A program made the position numbers and the translations under genes. The notes under the pieces were generated by a model. That model had not been told where the DNA came from. It was given only the letters and a program-made list of their open reading frames with translations, and searched no databases. A stretch of DNA of 58,340 nt from a virus: positions 1 through 58,340 of the IMG/VR virus record IMGVR_UViG_3300035670_000243. One strand, written 5' to 3'. Below, one piece after another: positions 42,911 to 50,541 of this stretch. Each line of letters begins with the position of its first letter. The stretch's first letter is position 1.

Positions 42911-43684
42911 TTATGCGGCCATCTGAACAACGAATCCAGACCGGTCACGCCGTGCGCGACCCTTTGCCTTTAGTCCGACTACTACGTTCGGGTCGTCTAG
43001 GAACCGCAGGTCTGACTCGTCCCCGTTGATCACGCGACGACCTAAAAAGGTTTCGGGGAGCCCACCGTAGAACACGGCCGCAAAATTGACGGCCGACCCG
43101 TAGTTTTTTAGCGCCTTGACAATGACCGGCGCAAACTCTGGACGGTGGGAATAGGAAAAAGTAACGCGATAGTTTGGAATGCGCGTGATCTTGCGGGTCG
43201 GAATTTTGGTGTAATCGTAAAACTGAATTTCGGGGAATGCCGCGAAAATGTTGGGGTATTCGACGCCAGCGCGCACGCATGGGATATTCTCGAATGCGAT
43301 ATCGCTAGTGCCATTTGGGCGCACTACGGGAGTCAGACCCGCACGCGCTGCGCGTTTTTTGAAATTCTCAATTTCACGCACCATGCGTGCCATGAATGCG
43401 TCGCGTGACTCGTGAAACAATCGCGTACGCTCAAGCCGTGCTCGCTGGATTGCGTTGTCGGGCAATGTGTCACCATTGGGAGCGCGAAACGTCGCGTTAC
43501 CCTTTGCCATGCCGCCACGGCCGGCCGTTTTCAAACATCCTTCTTTGCATCCTGCAAGATCCGCCAGCGCGCAGATATTGACGCCGGCAAGATCATAGGG
43601 CGCAAGATACATGACAGCAGTCATGTACCCCTGCGCGTTACCCTTAACGGTTTTCGGGTCGTTTTCGATTGTGAATAGGTTCAT
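42911..43684 (-). CDS. Conserved phage protein with GCKEGCLKTAGRG motif
   Basis: A 257-residue protein from ATG 43684 (ATGA overlap). MNLFTIENDPKTVKGNAQGY, then a three-Cys CALADLAGCKEGCLKTAGRG segment (about 35-54) and IQRARLERTRLF make up a family I have seen in many phages without a known function. The conserved Cys could bind a metal or act in catalysis. The C-terminal half includes TRKITRIPNYRVTFSYSHRP and a beta-rich end. The longer upstream frame covers the previous gene and is rejected. Confidence 0.65.
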   Translation of the reverse strand: MNLFTIENDPKTVKGNAQGYMTAVMYLAPYDLAGVNICALADLAGCKEGCLKTAGRGGMAKGNATFRAPNGDTLPDNAIQRARLERTRLFHESRDAFMARMVREIENFKKRAARAGLTPVVRPNGTSDIAFENIPCVRAGVEYPNIFAAFPEIQFYDYTKIPTRKITRIPNYRVTFSYSHRPEFAPVIVKALKNYGSAVNFAAVFYGGLPETFLGRRVINGDESDLRFLDDPNVVVGLKAKGRARRDRSGFVVQMAA

Positions 43685-43896
43685 GCCGCTACCCTCACGC
43701 GAGCGCCAACGATGCGCGAGCATTCGCGCAGGATTTTCTGAATGGTCGGGTCGGTCGGCGAATAGTCCGCCATTGAATAGCCAAGGATGGCCAGCGACTC
43801 GCGAGCAAGCGAAACATGGTCGCGATGCGAGCACGCAATGTGCCGCGCTACGTTAGTGACAGCGGTTACAGTGTGTAGGCTTTTTGTGAGTGTCAT
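43681..43896 (-). CDS. Small hypothetical protein
   Basis: A 71-residue protein, first in its cluster, with AGGAAATAGCACAC upstream of its ATG. Two helices (VSLARESLAILGY and TIQKILRECSRIV) are evident. It overlaps the following gene by 4 nt. No family is recognised. Confidence 0.6.
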   Translation of the reverse strand: MTLTKSLHTVTAVTNVARHIACSHRDHVSLARESLAILGYSMADYSPTDPTIQKILRECSRIVGARVRVAA

Positions 43897-44305
43897 GTGT
43901 GCTATTTCCTGCGGTTAGTTATCGGACAGGTGACAGAATGCACACAATCCGCGTCGCTGTCAAGCATTCCGCTACCGAGACCACTACGCGGACAGACTGC
44001 ACACAGGTATTGACAACGCACGCGCAAGTAATAACCGCGCACACGCACGCATACGCGCACGTACACGCGCGCGCCTGGCGTGCACGCACGCACGCGCACG
44101 CGATCTAATCGCGCAAATACCCTAGGGACCCCTATAAATCGCGCACGCGCACGCACGAAAAACGCGCACGGGGGAGCACCAAAACCAGGGGCGGGGTGAC
44201 GGGTCCCATCTACACAATTCACCCTCCCCACCCCACCCCAACTCTCACATGCACTACCCCCTTGCGCTATTTACACTAGGGTCCCATCTGGTATGCTCGG
44301 CGTAT
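43897..44305. other. Non-coding gap with CG/CA alternating tract
   Basis: A 409-bp gap between the minus cluster and the terL arm. A TTGACA lies on the minus strand at 43963-43958, 17 bp before CATTCT, as a possible promoter for the cluster. From 44018 to 44105 and again near 44140-44170 the sequence is nearly all alternating pyrimidine-purine CG/CA steps (CACGCGCACACGCACGC and similar), which can adopt left-handed Z-DNA. I see no gene here. Confidence 0.5.
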
Positions 44306-44455
44306 ATGAAAAAGCCCGGACTGTACGAGAACATTCACGCGAAGCGCGAGCGCATTAAAGCTGGGTCCCCGGAGCGCATGAGAAAGCCGGGGTCCCTTGG
44401 AGCGCCGACTGCGAAGGCATTCCGTGACTCAGCTAAAACTGCCAAGCGCAAGTAG
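44306..44455 (+). CDS. Small basic phage protein next to terL
   Basis: A 49-residue, Lys/Arg-rich protein from ATG 44306: MKKPGLYENIHAKRERIKAG, then MRKPGSLGAPTAKAFRDSAKTAKRK. Very similar short proteins are widespread in phage structural regions, often by the terminase or portal. The role is unknown. No good ribosome site is visible. It overlaps the start of terL by 32 nt. Confidence 0.65.
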   Translation: MKKPGLYENIHAKRERIKAGSPERMRKPGSLGAPTAKAFRDSAKTAKRK

Positions 44456-47400
44456 CCAGTCACCGGGGACCCCTCCCCCTCCCCCGGCTGCGATTGACTT
44501 TAACGATCCTTTGATTAGGGAGCTGAACAAGCTTCCGACGGAGGATTTGATAGCGTATGAGAACCGGTTGAGGTGGGTGAATCAGCGTCACAAGCACCAG
44601 AAGCCGCCGAAGGGTGAGTGGACGGTGTGGTTGTTACTGGCGGGACGCGGAGCGGGTAAAGCGCTTTGTGTGGATACGCCTGTTGCGACGGCAACGGGCT
44701 GGACGCGCATGGGTGATCTTCGAGATGGCGATGTGGTGTTTGACGAGCAAGGAGCTGCGTGCACTGTAGTGAAATCGCATGAGCCGTATATTCCTGCTGC
44801 GATGTATCGGTTGACGTTTTCGGATGGCTCAACGATTGATGCGGACGCAGAGCATTTGTGGACGACTTTGACGCATCGTGCGCGAAAGCAGATGACGCGG
44901 CATGGGATTTCCAGGGTTCCGGACGATTGGGCGACATACCGGCATGTGTTGACTGATTGCCACGGCAACGTCACTGGGGAGGTTGGGGCTGAGACGTTGA
45001 CGACTGAGCAGTTGATTGGGTCTTTTACGCACAGTAGCAGGGGTGATTTAAACCACTGCATTCCGACCGCACAGCCGTTAAATCTTCCTGAGAAGGATCT
45101 GCTGATTGACCCATATTTGTTGGGTGTGTGGCTAGGTGATGGCGCATCTAAGGACCAAGTGATTTGGTCACACATTGACGATTTGCCGTTTGCTGAGGCG
45201 CATATTCAGTCGCTGGGTTACGAAACGTCGAGAAAGCACGATCAGGGTAATACGTGGAGTTTGCGCATTCAGGGGCTTGCCGCGCAGCTTAAAGAACTAG
45301 GCGTTTTTAAAAACAAGCATGTTCCAAGCCAATATCTTCGTGCGTCGATTGAGCAGCGTTTAGCGTTGTTGCGCGGGTTAATGGACACCGATGGGTATCA
45401 GTCTTCAAAGGCTGCGGAGTTTTGCAATACCAATCGCGCATTGGCTGAAGCGGTGTATGAGTTAGCGGTGTCATTGGGTGAGAAGCCGACTTTTAAAGAA
45501 AGCCGCGCCATGTTGTACGGTCGTGATTGTGGTGAGAAATATCGCGTGACATGGCGGTGGAATCGGTTTAACCCGTTCTCGTTGCCGCGCAAAGTGAATC
45601 AATTAGCAGCCCCCGAAGCGCAAGCGTTCAAGCACGGGCATCGGATGATTGTGTCGATTGAGCGCATTCAGCCATCCACTGTGCGGTGCATTACGGTGGA
45701 TAGTGCTTCGCGGTTGTATTTGGCCGGGGAGGCCATGATTCCAACGCACAATACACGCGCAGCAGCGGAATGGGTGTGGTGGCAGGCGTACAAAACGCCG
45801 GAGACGCGCTGGTTGGTGTGTGCACCAACGGCAGCGGACATTCGCGATACGTGTTTTGAGGGTGATTCTGGGTTAATTCAGGTGATGCCGGAGCGTGTTG
45901 TATCGGAATACAACCGGTCGCTATCGGAAATTATTCTGAAGAACGGCTCGCTAATCAAAGGCATTTCAGCGGAGACTCCCGACCGGCTGCGCGGTGGTCA
46001 ATGGCATGGTGCTTGGTGTCACCCTGCTGGAACTCCGGTCTTGATGGCAGACGGTAGCGAGAAGCCCATCGAGAAGATCCAAGTAGGTGATGTAGTTCAA
46101 ACGCGATTTGGGCCGCACGCAGTCACGGCATCGGGCTTGAGCCAGAACCCCGCACCGCTGTACCGTATCAGTTATGGCACGACGAACTTGACATGTACCG
46201 CAGATCATCCGATACTGATTGCAGGCCGGGGATGGGTCCCGGCTGAAAGCGTCAGAGTAGGAGATGAGCTATGGATACCATTGAGTTTGGCGGGAAAATA
46301 TGGCGTAAGCGCAAAGACGGGTACTACCGAAACGGTAAGAAGCAGTACCTTCATCGACACGTTTACGAGCAAAGCCACGGAGCTATTCCGCCCGGCTACG
46401 TTGTGCATCACGCCGATCACGACCCGGCTAACAACGACATTACGAACTTGGTGCTTATGCGTCGTTCTGAGCATCACAGCTATCATTCAGCAGGCAGACC
46501 AACGTCTGATAAGCAGAAGCAAGCTGCTTCAGCAACTTTTGTGCGCATGTGGCAAGAGTTGGAGTTGGATTCAAAAGCTTGCGTGCAGTGCGGTACGCAG
46601 TTTGAAAGCAAATCCATGCACAAAACTCGTGAGTTCTGTTCTGCAAAGTGCATGGAGAAGTGGAGAGCAAATGCTTTCCAGCCTGAAGAGCGCAAGTGCG
46701 AAGAGTGTAAAAGCCCTTACGAAGCCGTTAAGCGAACTCAGAAGTATTGCTGCGAGTCTTGCAATCAGAAAGCCGCTACTCGCCGGTATCGGGCGGATCG
46801 ACCCATTACAGTTCAGTCCTGTAATACCTGCGGAAAACAGTACGAAACCAAGCGCGCAAACGCAAGGTTCTGCTCAAGGCCCTGCGCCGTTCGCTATCAC
46901 GGCAAAAATCAGCGCCGTCGAAAGGTTAAAGACGCGGGAGCCGGTTTATAACCTGACAGTTGATCAGGTAAACGAGTACGTTGCAGGCGGAGTCGTGGTG
47001 CATAATTGCGATGAGTTAGCAGCTTGGCAGTACGATCAGGAGGCGTGGGACATGATTATGTTCGCGCTTCGATTGGGGAAACGTCCGAGGATTGTAGCGA
47101 CGACGACTCCGAAGCCGAAGGCGTTGATTCGTGACTTGATTGCGCGTGATGGGGCGGATGTGCACGTTACGAGGGCGAGCACGTACGAGAACATTGCGAA
47201 TTTGGCTCCGACTTTTCAGCAGCAGTTGTTGAAATTTGAGGGCACGACGCTTGGAAGACAGGAAATCCACGCGGAGGTGTTAAATCCTGAGGAGCAGGGG
47301 ATTATCAAGCGCAATTGGGTGAAGCTCTGGCCGGCGAAGAAGCCGTTACCGGCGCTTGAGCACATTGTGATGAGCTTGGACACGGCATTTACGGAGCAGA

Positions 47401-48032
47401 CGAGGGACAAAAAGACGTCCGATTCGGACCCGAGTGCGTGTGTGGTGTTGGGATTGTTCTACGAGAACGAGAAACCGAACATTATTTTGCTGGATTGTTG
47501 GGAAGACCGGCTGGGGATGCCGGAGTTGATCAAGAAGGTGAAGCGGGAGATGGAGGTTTACTACGGGGAGGACGATCAGAAGCCGATTATCAAGCCGATG
47601 TACGGTCCTTCGCGGATGATTAACACGGGTCGGAAGCCCGATACGATAGTGATTGAGGACAAGGGCAGCGGGATTTCTCTCCGTCAGATGCTCTCTAGGG
47701 AGGGGATTCTGGCGCATGCGTATAACCCTGGGAAGGCATCTAAGTTGACCCGATTGCACATGGTGAGTCACTTATTTGCCAGTGGGATGGTGTGGTTTGT
47801 GGAGAGTGAGAAGCGTTCCGGGCAGGTTAGATCATGGGCGGAGCCGCTTTTGTACCAATTGTGTTCGTTTTCGGGGGAGGGGACGATCAAACACGATGAT
47901 TTGATGGATGCTTGCACGCAGGGATTACGTTTCCTAGCGGACAGGGATATGATAAGCGTGAGTAAACCTAAGCCGGTACAGCCGCGACTAATTGTGAACG
48001 AGCGTCCGAGGGGAAATCCATATGGCATCTGA
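44424..48032 (+). CDS. terL: Large terminase subunit carrying two inteins
   Basis: A 1202-residue precursor from GTG 44424 (GAAGG 6 nt upstream; the TTG at 44397 is less likely), giving about 508 residues after both inteins leave. The extein shows Walker A GRGAGKT, split between K and T by intein 1, and Walker B GAWCDELAAW, split between W and C by intein 2, then ATTTPKPKALIRDL and a nuclease domain with SLDTAF, VIEDKGSG and KHDDLMDAC. TerL is the ATP-driven motor and nuclease that packs DNA through the portal. Neither ATP motif exists until splicing occurs, so packaging depends on both inteins. The stop overlaps the portal start by 11 nt. Confidence 0.95.
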   Translation: MTQLKLPSASSQSPGTPPPPPAAIDFNDPLIRELNKLPTEDLIAYENRLRWVNQRHKHQKPPKGEWTVWLLLAGRGAGKALCVDTPVATATGWTRMGDLRDGDVVFDEQGAACTVVKSHEPYIPAAMYRLTFSDGSTIDADAEHLWTTLTHRARKQMTRHGISRVPDDWATYRHVLTDCHGNVTGEVGAETLTTEQLIGSFTHSSRGDLNHCIPTAQPLNLPEKDLLIDPYLLGVWLGDGASKDQVIWSHIDDLPFAEAHIQSLGYETSRKHDQGNTWSLRIQGLAAQLKELGVFKNKHVPSQYLRASIEQRLALLRGLMDTDGYQSSKAAEFCNTNRALAEAVYELAVSLGEKPTFKESRAMLYGRDCGEKYRVTWRWNRFNPFSLPRKVNQLAAPEAQAFKHGHRMIVSIERIQPSTVRCITVDSASRLYLAGEAMIPTHNTRAAAEWVWWQAYKTPETRWLVCAPTAADIRDTCFEGDSGLIQVMPERVVSEYNRSLSEIILKNGSLIKGISAETPDRLRGGQWHGAWCHPAGTPVLMADGSEKPIEKIQVGDVVQTRFGPHAVTASGLSQNPAPLYRISYGTTNLTCTADHPILIAGRGWVPAESVRVGDELWIPLSLAGKYGVSAKTGTTETVRSSTFIDTFTSKATELFRPATLCITPITTRLTTTLRTWCLCVVLSITAIIQQADQRLISRSKLLQQLLCACGKSWSWIQKLACSAVRSLKANPCTKLVSSVLQSAWRSGEQMLSSLKSASAKSVKALTKPLSELRSIAASLAIRKPLLAGIGRIDPLQFSPVIPAENSTKPSAQTQGSAQGPAPFAITAKISAVERLKTREPVYNLTVDQVNEYVAGGVVVHNCDELAAWQYDQEAWDMIMFALRLGKRPRIVATTTPKPKALIRDLIARDGADVHVTRASTYENIANLAPTFQQQLLKFEGTTLGRQEIHAEVLNPEEQGIIKRNWVKLWPAKKPLPALEHIVMSLDTAFTEQTRDKKTSDSDPSACVVLGLFYENEKPNIILLDCWEDRLGMPELIKKVKREMEVYYGEDDQKPIIKPMYGPSRMINTGRKPDTIVIEDKGSGISLRQMLSREGILAHAYNPGKASKLTRLHMVSHLFASGMVWFVESEKRSGQVRSWAEPLLYQLCSFSGEGTIKHDDLMDACTQGLRFLADRDMISVSKPKPVQPRLIVNERPRGNPYGI
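44661..45752 (+). mobile_element. Intein 1: class 3-like, in TerL Walker A, with LAGLIDADG endonuclease
   Basis: A 364-residue intein from A1 (ALCVDTPVATATGW) to MIPTHN with Thr as the next extein residue; removing it restores GRGAGKT. It lacks Cys at position 1 but has the class 3 triad: W67 in block B (AEHLW), C343 in block F (RCITVD) and T362 in block G (PTHN). Endonuclease motifs are LLGVWLGDGA (153-162) and LLRGLMDTDG (236-245). Taking the Cys at residue 3 as the first residue would leave two extra extein residues inside Walker A. Homing would target the uninterrupted Walker A codons of other terL genes. Confidence 0.9.
46017..47006 (+). mobile_element. Intein 2: class 1-like, in TerL Walker B, hosting an out-of-frame HNH gene
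   Basis: A 330-residue insertion from C1 (CHPAGTPVLMADGSEKPI) to GGVVVHN, followed by Cys as the first extein residue; removal joins GAW to CDELAAW. Block B TADHPIL has T61 and H64; block F is VYNLTVDQVNEYVAGG. The splicing parts are about residues 1-88 and about 295-330. The roughly 227 residues between them, in the terL frame, are Ser/Leu/Ala-rich and match no endonuclease. This DNA encodes an HNH protein in another frame. The splice residues look complete, so splicing is expected, with a long linker of unknown fold in place of the usual endonuclease. Confidence 0.9.
46271..46951 (+). CDS. HNH endonuclease nested out of frame inside intein 2 of terL
   Basis: A 226-residue protein read in a different frame from terL. 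It has its own AGGAG (46259-46263) 7 nt before ATG 46271. The HNH core is LHRHVYEQSHGAIPPGYVVH then HADHDPANNDITNLVLM (about 27-63), followed by three repeated Cys modules: C104/C107 with C123/C127, C143/C146 with C160/C164, and C184/C187 with C201/C205. It begins just after the intein block containing VGDELWIP and its stop falls in the codons of block F (VYN), so it fills exactly the endonuclease slot. It probably drives homing of intein 2. Both frames are intact. Confidence 0.9.
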   Translation: MDTIEFGGKIWRKRKDGYYRNGKKQYLHRHVYEQSHGAIPPGYVVHHADHDPANNDITNLVLMRRSEHHSYHSAGRPTSDKQKQAASATFVRMWQELELDSKACVQCGTQFESKSMHKTREFCSAKCMEKWRANAFQPEERKCEECKSPYEAVKRTQKYCCESCNQKAATRRYRADRPITVQSCNTCGKQYETKRANARFCSRPCAVRYHGKNQRRRKVKDAGAGL

Positions 48033-50541
48033 GCCGAATGATTTGGATGAAGCGAAGGAAGACCTTGGTGAGATGTTTGAACTCCCTGATGAGGTGTCTG
48101 AGATTGAGGACACTGAGGACGGCGGGGCGATTGTTCGTTTTGAAGAGGAGTCCGAGGAGTCTGTTGAGTTGGAGTTTTACTCTAACTTAGCGGAGACGCT
48201 GCCTGAGGGGGAGATGGACGACTTGGCCCAGAGTTTGTTGGGTTTGGTGTCCAAGGACAAGGAAGCGCGTAAGAAGCGTGATGAGCAGTATGAAGAGGGA
48301 ATCCGGCGTACGGGACTTGGAGATGATGCACCAGGCGGCGCTCAATTTCAGGGTGCAAGTCGGGTTGTGCACCCCATGCTTACTGAGGTTTGCGTGGACT
48401 TCTCTGCCCGAGCTATTAAGGAGCTTTTCCCGGCTGCGGGTCCGGTAAAGGACTACATTGTTGGGGAGCCGACTGCGGACAAGGTGACGAAGGCATCGCG
48501 CAAGAGCCAGTACATGAACTGGCAGTTGACGCAGCAGATGCCGGAGTTCCGTGCGGAGTTGGAGCAATTACTGACTCAGGTCCCGCTGGGTGGTGCGCAG
48601 TATTTGAAGTTGAGTTGGGACTCTGGCAAGCGCCGTCCGGTTCCGCTGTTCATTGGTATTGACGACATTTACCTGCCGTACGCGGCAACGAACTTTTATT
48701 CGGCCGAGCGCAAGACGCACGTTCAGTACGTGACGGAGATTGAGTACCGGCAGCGGATTCGCTCTGGGATGTATCGGGATGTTGACTTGGCTCCGACGAC
48801 GATGGAGCCGGATGTCTCGAAGGCTGAGAAGGCAAACAACAAGATCGAGGGTCGCGACAGCAGCGCGTACGACGTTGACGGGCTGCGCACGATCTTTGAA
48901 ATCTATGTCATTTCTGACATAGAAGACGAGTACGGGCTGGCTCCGTACATTGTTTCTCTGGACAAGACGACGGGTAAGGTTCTCAGCATCTATCGCAACT
49001 GGCGTGAGGAAGACGACACGCTTGAGGAGATGCAGTGGATCATTGAGTTCCCGTTTGTTCCGTGGCGTGGTGCGTACCCGATTGGCATTCCGCAGATGAT
49101 TGGCGGATTGTCTGCTGCGGCTACGGGTGCTCTTCGGGCGCTGTTGGATTCTGCGCACATTGCGAACTTTCCTGGAATGCTGAAGCTGAAGGGCGGTCGT
49201 GAGGGCGGGCAGTCTGAGCGCATTGATCCGACCGAGGTTAAGGAGATTGAGGGCGGCGCGTTTTCGGATGACATCCGAAAGATTGCGATGCCGTTGCCGT
49301 TCAACCAGCCTTCTGAGACGTTGTTCCGATTGCTGGGCTTTTTGATTGAGTCTGGCAAGGGCGTGGTTCGCACCACGATGGAGAACATCACCGACAGCAA
49401 CGCCAACGTCCCGGTTGGTACGCAGCTCTCGCGTATTGAGCAGGGGATGATGGTATTCAGTGCGATTCATGCGCGATTGCATGATGCGATGGGTCGCACG
49501 CTGAAGGTTCTGCATCGTTTGAACGCGATGTACTTGGAGGACGAAGAGGTCAAGGAAGAGCTTGGCGAGTTGATTGTTCGCCGTTCTGACTTTGAAGGTC
49601 CGATGGATGTGGTTCCGGTTTCGGACCCGAACATTTTCAGCGAAGCCCAGCGTTACGCTCAGGTTCAGGCTCTTGCTCAGCGTGCGATTGCTTTGCCGCA
49701 GATTTACGATTTGCGCAAAGTTGAAGAGCGCATCCTTGATCAGTTGAAGATTCCGAATGCCAAGGATTTGTTGGTTCCTGCTCCGAAGCCGAAGGAGATG
49801 AATGCCGTTAATGAAAACATTGCTGCAACTCTTGGGCGTCCACTATCGGCGTTCCCGGAACAGGATCACCTTGCGCACATCCAGGTCCACTTGGACTATC
49901 TCACTAGCCCCGTACTGGGTGGCGGTTTCCTCATGTCGGGGACATACATTCCTGTCATTCTTAACCATCTCAAAGAGCATATCGCTCTTTGGTATGCGAA
50001 TCATGTCTTTGAAGTTGCCTCTAGCGCGATGGGTCGGGACATTTCGGAAGTCCAGCGCGAAAAGGGCAGTTCGGAATTGAAGCGCAGCTTTGACCAGATG
50101 CTGGCTGCGGCATCTCAGCGCGTAGTTCCGGATGCGGCAAAGGCGTTCAGCGCGATCCCGCAGATCGTTCAGCAAGCGATGCAGGTCATGCAGCAGATGC
50201 AGGGCATGGGACCGCAAGATCCGAAGACGGCGGCGCAGATGGCAGAGACGCAGCGCAAGGCTGCTGCGGATCAAGGGTTGCTTCAGGTCAAGCAGGCCGA
50301 GTTGCAGCTTGAGGCGCAGAAGGTGCAGTCTGGTTCGCAAGAGCAGACAGCGAAGATGCAGCAGGCAGCGCAGCGTGAAGTGCTCAAGCAGGATCGCTTG
50401 GACGAGCGTCAGGCTGCTGAGCTTCAGGTCAAGATGCTTACGAACCGCGAGGACAACCAGACGGCGAAGGACATCGCTGCTGCGGAAGTTCTCACGGGTG
50501 AAAAGGTTGGTGTTTCAACGGGCACGGGTATTAACCCGTAG
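48022..50541 (+). CDS. Portal protein
   Basis: An 839-residue protein starting 11 nt inside terL. After an acidic N terminus (about 1-60) comes the portal core with DDAPGGAQFQGASRVVHPML, the EYGLAPYIVSLDK region and GALRALLDSAHIANFPG. The C-terminal 130 residues are a Gln/Ala-rich coiled coil (KAAADQGLLQVKQAELQLEA), as in other large podovirus portals with a barrel. It forms the dodecameric DNA channel and motor dock. Length and gene order next to terL support the call. Confidence 0.85.
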   Translation: MASEPNDLDEAKEDLGEMFELPDEVSEIEDTEDGGAIVRFEEESEESVELEFYSNLAETLPEGEMDDLAQSLLGLVSKDKEARKKRDEQYEEGIRRTGLGDDAPGGAQFQGASRVVHPMLTEVCVDFSARAIKELFPAAGPVKDYIVGEPTADKVTKASRKSQYMNWQLTQQMPEFRAELEQLLTQVPLGGAQYLKLSWDSGKRRPVPLFIGIDDIYLPYAATNFYSAERKTHVQYVTEIEYRQRIRSGMYRDVDLAPTTMEPDVSKAEKANNKIEGRDSSAYDVDGLRTIFEIYVISDIEDEYGLAPYIVSLDKTTGKVLSIYRNWREEDDTLEEMQWIIEFPFVPWRGAYPIGIPQMIGGLSAAATGALRALLDSAHIANFPGMLKLKGGREGGQSERIDPTEVKEIEGGAFSDDIRKIAMPLPFNQPSETLFRLLGFLIESGKGVVRTTMENITDSNANVPVGTQLSRIEQGMMVFSAIHARLHDAMGRTLKVLHRLNAMYLEDEEVKEELGELIVRRSDFEGPMDVVPVSDPNIFSEAQRYAQVQALAQRAIALPQIYDLRKVEERILDQLKIPNAKDLLVPAPKPKEMNAVNENIAATLGRPLSAFPEQDHLAHIQVHLDYLTSPVLGGGFLMSGTYIPVILNHLKEHIALWYANHVFEVASSAMGRDISEVQREKGSSELKRSFDQMLAAASQRVVPDAAKAFSAIPQIVQQAMQVMQQMQGMGPQDPKTAAQMAETQRKAAADQGLLQVKQAELQLEAQKVQSGSQEQTAKMQQAAQREVLKQDRLDERQAAELQVKMLTNREDNQTAKDIAAAEVLTGEKVGVSTGTGINP

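Follow-up and report, generated by a model that had tools for sequence, protein, structure and literature searches.

A virus large terminase gene interrupted by two inteins, one containing a predicted HNH endonuclease gene in an overlapping reading frame

Results

The terL gene and its two inteins

The window (the whole stretch of DNA analysed, a virus record of 58,340 bases) contains a large terminase ORF that is broken twice by inteins. This 1211-aa ORF on the plus strand (44397-48032) was identified as terL by matches to Pfam Terminase_6N/6C plus intein/Hint families (Table 1). Close intein-free relatives show uninterrupted sites and thereby fix the limits of both inteins: Walker A reads AGRGAGKT in 79 of 79 matches, and relatives with an empty second site read GAWCDE or GCWTDE across the insertion point. 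An earlier sequence-only reading had placed the two inteins at the limits given in Table 1, the first between K and T of Walker A (GRGAGK/T) and the second within Walker B (GAW/CDE), which is borne out by the ORF, the relatives and the profile matches. Its further claim that two different splicing chemistries meet at codons of the ATP site also agrees with our assignments, as intein 1 belongs to class 3 and intein 2 to class 1. Neither intein is a chance match, the former resembling solved DnaB class 3 inteins and the latter gp41-1 and RecA-type inteins in both profile and fold. Upstream of terL, a gene on the opposite strand (42911-43834, -) matches phrog_1617, which is of unknown function (1.5e-59).

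Table 1. Features of the terL locus in window coordinates.
Feature	Position	Strand	Evidence
TerL N-extein, ending in Walker A GRGAGK (start codon uncertain)	44397..44660	+	ORF, Pfam, alignment to intein-free relatives
Intein 1, 364 aa, class 3, in-frame LAGLIDADG domain	44661..45752	+	phmmer, PF14528, nine relatives
TerL middle extein, after Walker A (from TRAAAEW) to Walker B GAW	45753..46016	+	78-97% aa identity to intein-free relatives
Intein 2, 330 aa, class 1 (Cys1 ... His-Asn, +1 Cys)	46017..47006	+	Profile and fold matches; mini-inteins at same codon
Intein 2 N-terminal splicing blocks, residues 1-86	46017..46274	+	AlphaFold pLDDT ~92; dN/dS 0.07-0.14
Shine-Dalgarno-like AGGAG, 7 nt before HNH ATG	46259..46263	+	Sequence
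Putative hidden HNH homing endonuclease ORF, 226 aa + TAA, out of frame with intein	46271..46951	+	PF13392, dN/dS, AlphaFold, I-HmuI likeness
Intein 2 C-terminal splicing blocks, residues 290-330	46884..47006	+	pLDDT 80-91; TIGR01443 intein_Cterm
HNH stop TAA, from TAT-AAC (Tyr-Asn codons of intein block F)	46949..46951	+	Sequence
TerL C-extein, rest of Walker B (CDE) and nuclease domain	47007..48032	+	Terminase_6N/6C; intein-free relatives up to 98% aa identity

Intein 1 has Ala at position 1, with no nucleophile there, and carries W67 (block B), C343 (block F), T362 (block G) and a +1 Thr, which is the class 3 combination of missing Cys/Ser1, W, C, T and +1 Thr. The WCT motif and the mechanism of class 3 inteins have been described for DnaB (PMC7664689), and phmmer aligned intein 1 to the mycobacterial DnaB class 3 inteins 6rix, 6riy and 6bs8 (1e-17). 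A LAGLIDADG_3 domain (PF14528) was matched in frame (27.8 bits versus a cut-off of 22.5), a motif by which intein 1 qualifies as a LAGLIDADG homing intein with predicted cleavage activity. Nine relatives (59-76% identity) occupy the same codon of other terL genes; their residue 1 varies (Q, L, G, A), and W, C and T are kept. No other intein was seen in six of the nine, and three (L175, L177 and L178) additionally carry a Walker B intein. A class 1 intein starting at Cys3 was considered and rejected, because GRGAGKT in intein-free relatives has no additional residues and this Cys is missing from L180. DnaB of M. smegmatis is another protein known to carry two inteins (PMC6195587).

In intein 2, the catalytic Cys1, the block B Thr-His, the block G His-Asn and the +1 Cys are all intact, and C1, T61, H64, H329 and N330 are invariant in the intein alignment; splicing by the class 1 route is predicted from these residues. 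Its AlphaFold model matches Hint/intein structures in Foldseek, with residues 1-90 and 290-330 modelled at pLDDT 80-93. The approximately 200 residues between these blocks (the filler) show no similarity to anything and mostly have pLDDT values of 27-47, and not one stop interrupts the 330 codons of the intein frame. Split inteins have a broken frame and a separately started IntC, neither of which is seen in intein 2. No IntC start codon occurs in the window in the intein frame before the last residues, and cis-splicing is therefore the simplest reading for intein 2.

A predicted HNH endonuclease gene in the second frame of intein 2

The sequence-only reading gave the limits of intein 2 correctly but overlooked a gene in a second frame between its splicing blocks. 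This ORF is read one base earlier than the intein (-1; HNH codon position 1 corresponds to intein codon position 3) and matches HNH_3 (PF13392, 2e-16). Residues H46, H47, N55 and H68 and the Cys pairs are invariant in the family alignment, consistent with an HNH_3 homing endonuclease possessing an HNH motif, zinc-binding C-terminal modules and predicted nuclease activity. The AlphaFold model of the ORF has a mean pLDDT of 86.8 and gave a weak Foldseek match to I-HmuI (1u3e), a likeness also found in a separate search. A Trp codon at the HNH start was discarded as a signal, being a trivial consequence of ATG followed by G in this frame (ATGG read as TGG). An NCBIfam match spanning intein 2 from end to end prompted the idea that cellular Rv2578c-type radical SAM inteins might also hide an HNH gene; this was rejected, since the 15 intein-bearing loci among 198 actinobacterial genomes had no HNH in any frame. 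The four Rv2578c-type inteins that were inspected contain an in-frame LAGLIDADG-like domain.

Selection on the two frames was estimated from three diverged copies (the window, L068 and L061; 76-81% nt identity). The HNH frame had a dN/dS of 0.13-0.20 and the flanking splicing blocks one of 0.06-0.15, against 0.87-1.15 for the intein frame on the same bases as the HNH gene. This contrast indicates that selection acts on the HNH enzyme and on the splicing blocks as proteins, with the filler kept open but otherwise unconstrained. The intein frame is open in all six closest copies (76-81% nt identity).

Site occupancy among terL relatives

Among 80 close terL relatives (L013-L092), site 2 is empty in 72, holds a mini-intein of 126-127 aa without HNH in three (L025, L074 and L075) and a 330-aa hidden-HNH intein in five (L061, L065, L066, L068 and L070). 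The two intein forms differ by 609-612 nt, and this extra stretch sits between blocks B and F, where endonuclease domains are normally found. Intein 1 was found in none of the 80, and with only 8 of 80 carrying anything at site 2, packaging requires neither intein. A comparison across related phages, as the sequence-only reading had proposed, revealed terL genes with zero, one and two inteins, a distribution in keeping with mobile elements. Inteins that lie close together can interfere with one another's homing (PMC10643990).

Two Walker B alleles exist at the +1 residue of site 2, GAWCDE and GCWTDE, and inteins were seen with Cys only, suggesting that Thr alleles may be resistant. At empty sites this residue is Thr in 39 relatives and Cys in 33. 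The sequence-only reading had explained the choice of ATP-site codons by homing and by the intolerance of such codons to resistance changes; the first part is supported, and the second is not, given the two residues at site 2.

Recurrence of the hidden-HNH layout

The HNH family was searched in viral contigs, phage records, and bacterial and archaeal genomes, and profile HMMs of the intein N- and C-blocks were applied in three frames around each HNH relative. At 71 non-redundant loci both intein blocks lie in frame HNH+1 with no stop between them, and two loci (L155 and L172) have the other relative frame (host = HNH+2). The loci with this layout come from a diverse range of phages and prophages. 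An HNH gene in frame with its intein was found in none of the surveyed HNH relatives. About 11 further loci (L003, L117, L129, L138, L163, L169, L197, L202, L203, L205 and L206) are flanked by blocks on one or both sides, but their frame is closed, and they resemble split inteins. L187 was rejected as a split intein, as it has an upstream single-base frameshift instead and its HNH overlap is open. Where hosts were tested, they comprised several terminase families, at Walker B or at a nuclease-domain site, and one portal protein (Phage_portal_3; L164:619-3126). A hidden-HNH intein was also observed in a terminase on an archaeal-binned contig (L208, Thermoplasmatales archaeon MAG), which may be viral or may have been binned wrongly.

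Synonymous recoding of the hidden loci with their own codon usage predicted 201 stops in the host frame versus 0 observed, a comparison that is partly circular because the hidden class was defined by its open frame; free-standing HNH controls had 133 stops versus 140 expected. With a median chance of an open frame of ~4% per locus, chance alone does not fit the ~73 of 84 flanked loci that are open. L155:3001-3564 and L172:3001-3525 have no stops versus 12 and 8 expected (chance 3e-7 and 1e-4) and are an independent case of the hidden-HNH layout. Shine-Dalgarno-like motifs of at least 4 nt precede the HNH start at 47 of 67 hidden loci, compared with 23 of 159 control positions. Furthermore, the HNH stop falls inside the intein block F/G match at 64 of the 71 hidden loci, and among the examples listed it is made up of the T of one codon and the AA or GA of an Asn, Asp or Glu codon.

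In Vibrio phage 1.238.A (L003:2992-3961), TerL contains a LAGLIDADG intein at the Walker A region and a split intein around an HNH gene, whose IntC begins at an ATG (3644) within the HNH 3' end, preceded by GGAGG. In the HNH tree, which has many weak branches, this split locus groups with the hidden loci L185 and L118 (94-96% SH-aLRT), which is only suggestive of a hidden-to-split direction.

Discussion

Proposed mechanism and alternative explanations

We consider it very probable that intein 2 represents a nested mobile element with dual coding: a mini-intein inserted at Walker B, with a -1-frame HNH gene between its blocks B and F, the whole homing as a unit. Ribosomes translating terL would read through in the intein frame and produce an unstructured linker of ~200 residues, around which the halves of the splicing domain would fold and splice in cis by the class 1 route. 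Other ribosomes would start at the internal AGGAG...ATG and release a free HNH enzyme ending at the stop codon that the block F codons supply. This enzyme would then cut intein-free terL copies, into which the entire unit would be copied. By comparison, intein 1 at Walker A would follow the ordinary class 3 plan, with its LAGLIDADG endonuclease in frame. The computed basis of the nested-element reading comprises dual open frames, constraint on the HNH gene, a near-neutral filler, recurrence across lineages, and empty, mini-intein and hidden-HNH states of one site; internal initiation, cis-splicing, DNA cleavage and homing we infer. Counting against it, the disordered filler exceeds the typical loop of a mini-intein.

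A broader proposal, to which we lean slightly, is that this HNH family usually spreads within inteins by out-of-frame nesting, a habit that has so far gone unrecognized. Selection would only keep the intein frame open and block F would provide the HNH stop, and closure of the frame together with a new start before IntC would yield a natural split intein. The two relative frames would then reflect at least two origins.

The sequence-only reading had suggested that splicing of both inteins times packaging, and a timer or stress sensor of this kind would be compatible with the nested element. The position of both inteins in the ATP site and the reversible inhibition of a class 3 intein of the DnaB helicase by oxidation (PMC6195587) speak for such a role, but most terL relatives lack inteins, and the occurrence of zero, one or two is the pattern of mobile elements. 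A regulatory effect is possible by analogy, and as an explanation of the locus we regard it as unlikely.

Programmed frameshifting near 46271 could generate an IntN-HNH fusion in place of internal initiation. The HNH frame in the window is open only from 46268, which would confine the slip to that spot; however, most hidden loci have a start codon and a Shine-Dalgarno-like motif, and the HNH proteins have N-termini equivalent to those in free-standing relatives (for example L006 and L007), making frameshifting quite unlikely. It is very improbable that intein 2 is a dead or decaying composite with an accidental overlap: the unconstrained filler would fit decay, but purifying selection acts on splicing blocks and HNH gene alike, the catalytic residues of intein 2 are intact and the HNH motif residues are invariant. 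Although group I introns often host HNH genes, we give almost no credence to an RNA-level intron whose removal would leave an mRNA encoding a mini-intein, as positions 44000-48600 have no Rfam intron match (group I or II), the 612-nt insert is almost entirely ORF, and more than 70 loci preserve an open intein frame across the insert, for which an intron would have no use.

Significance

Inteins are normally described as having an endonuclease in frame, as having lost it (mini-inteins), or as being split around a free-standing gene. The nested-element reading, if true, would add a fourth, widespread layout, in which an overlapping frame encodes the endonuclease, and many phage inteins with no recognizable endonuclease would in fact be armed. 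The enzyme could be made without splicing and in amounts differing from those of the host protein, and a plausible route would lead from cis inteins to split inteins. The locus is also a clear example of dual coding in nature: one frame is under constraint as protein, the other almost only against stops. Gene callers overlook such loci, as in Tetrasphaera phage TJE1, Acinetobacter phage Highwayman and Rhodobacteraceae phage LS06-2018-MD07 (L002, L004 and L005), where only the large terminase is annotated and the HNH gene is unannotated.

Comparison with known systems

A search of open-licence papers found no report of an out-of-frame endonuclease within an intein, and in that literature the arrangement appears undescribed. 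Inteins with in-frame endonucleases (LAGLIDADG; PI-SceI, intein 1) share with intein 2 the blocks A, B, F and G and an insertion between B and F. Intein 2 differs from the PI-SceI type in that its endonuclease is a separate out-of-frame HNH gene, and the enzyme would therefore lie outside the spliced-out polypeptide. The 'fractured genes' that Dassa is said to have described in 2009 reportedly contain split inteins whose two halves flank a free-standing endonuclease. They share with intein 2 an HNH-type gene between IntN and IntC, and L003 has such a layout; in intein 2, by contrast, the intein frame is continuous and IntC lacks its own start, so splicing would have to occur in cis.

The TerL inteins of mycobacteriophages likewise belong to classes 1 and 3 and occupy ATPase-motif sites, and the passages considered here mention no out-of-frame endonuclease (PMC5050341). 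Unlike the inteins covered in those passages, hidden-HNH loci also use the nuclease-domain site and a portal protein.

The closest published case is the ShiLan/Pacc40 insertion, in which an out-of-frame HNH (the ShiLan domain) lies in a phage DNA methylase (PMC11855218). As in intein 2, a conserved phage gene with an open frame of its own conceals the HNH in another frame. The printed positions further suggest the same relative frame and a stop composed of T and the AA of an Asn codon. The ShiLan authors found neither splicing domains nor a detectable Shine-Dalgarno motif, and the insertion is thought to stay in the protein, whereas the HNH gene of intein 2 is flanked by intact splicing blocks and preceded by a Shine-Dalgarno-like motif.
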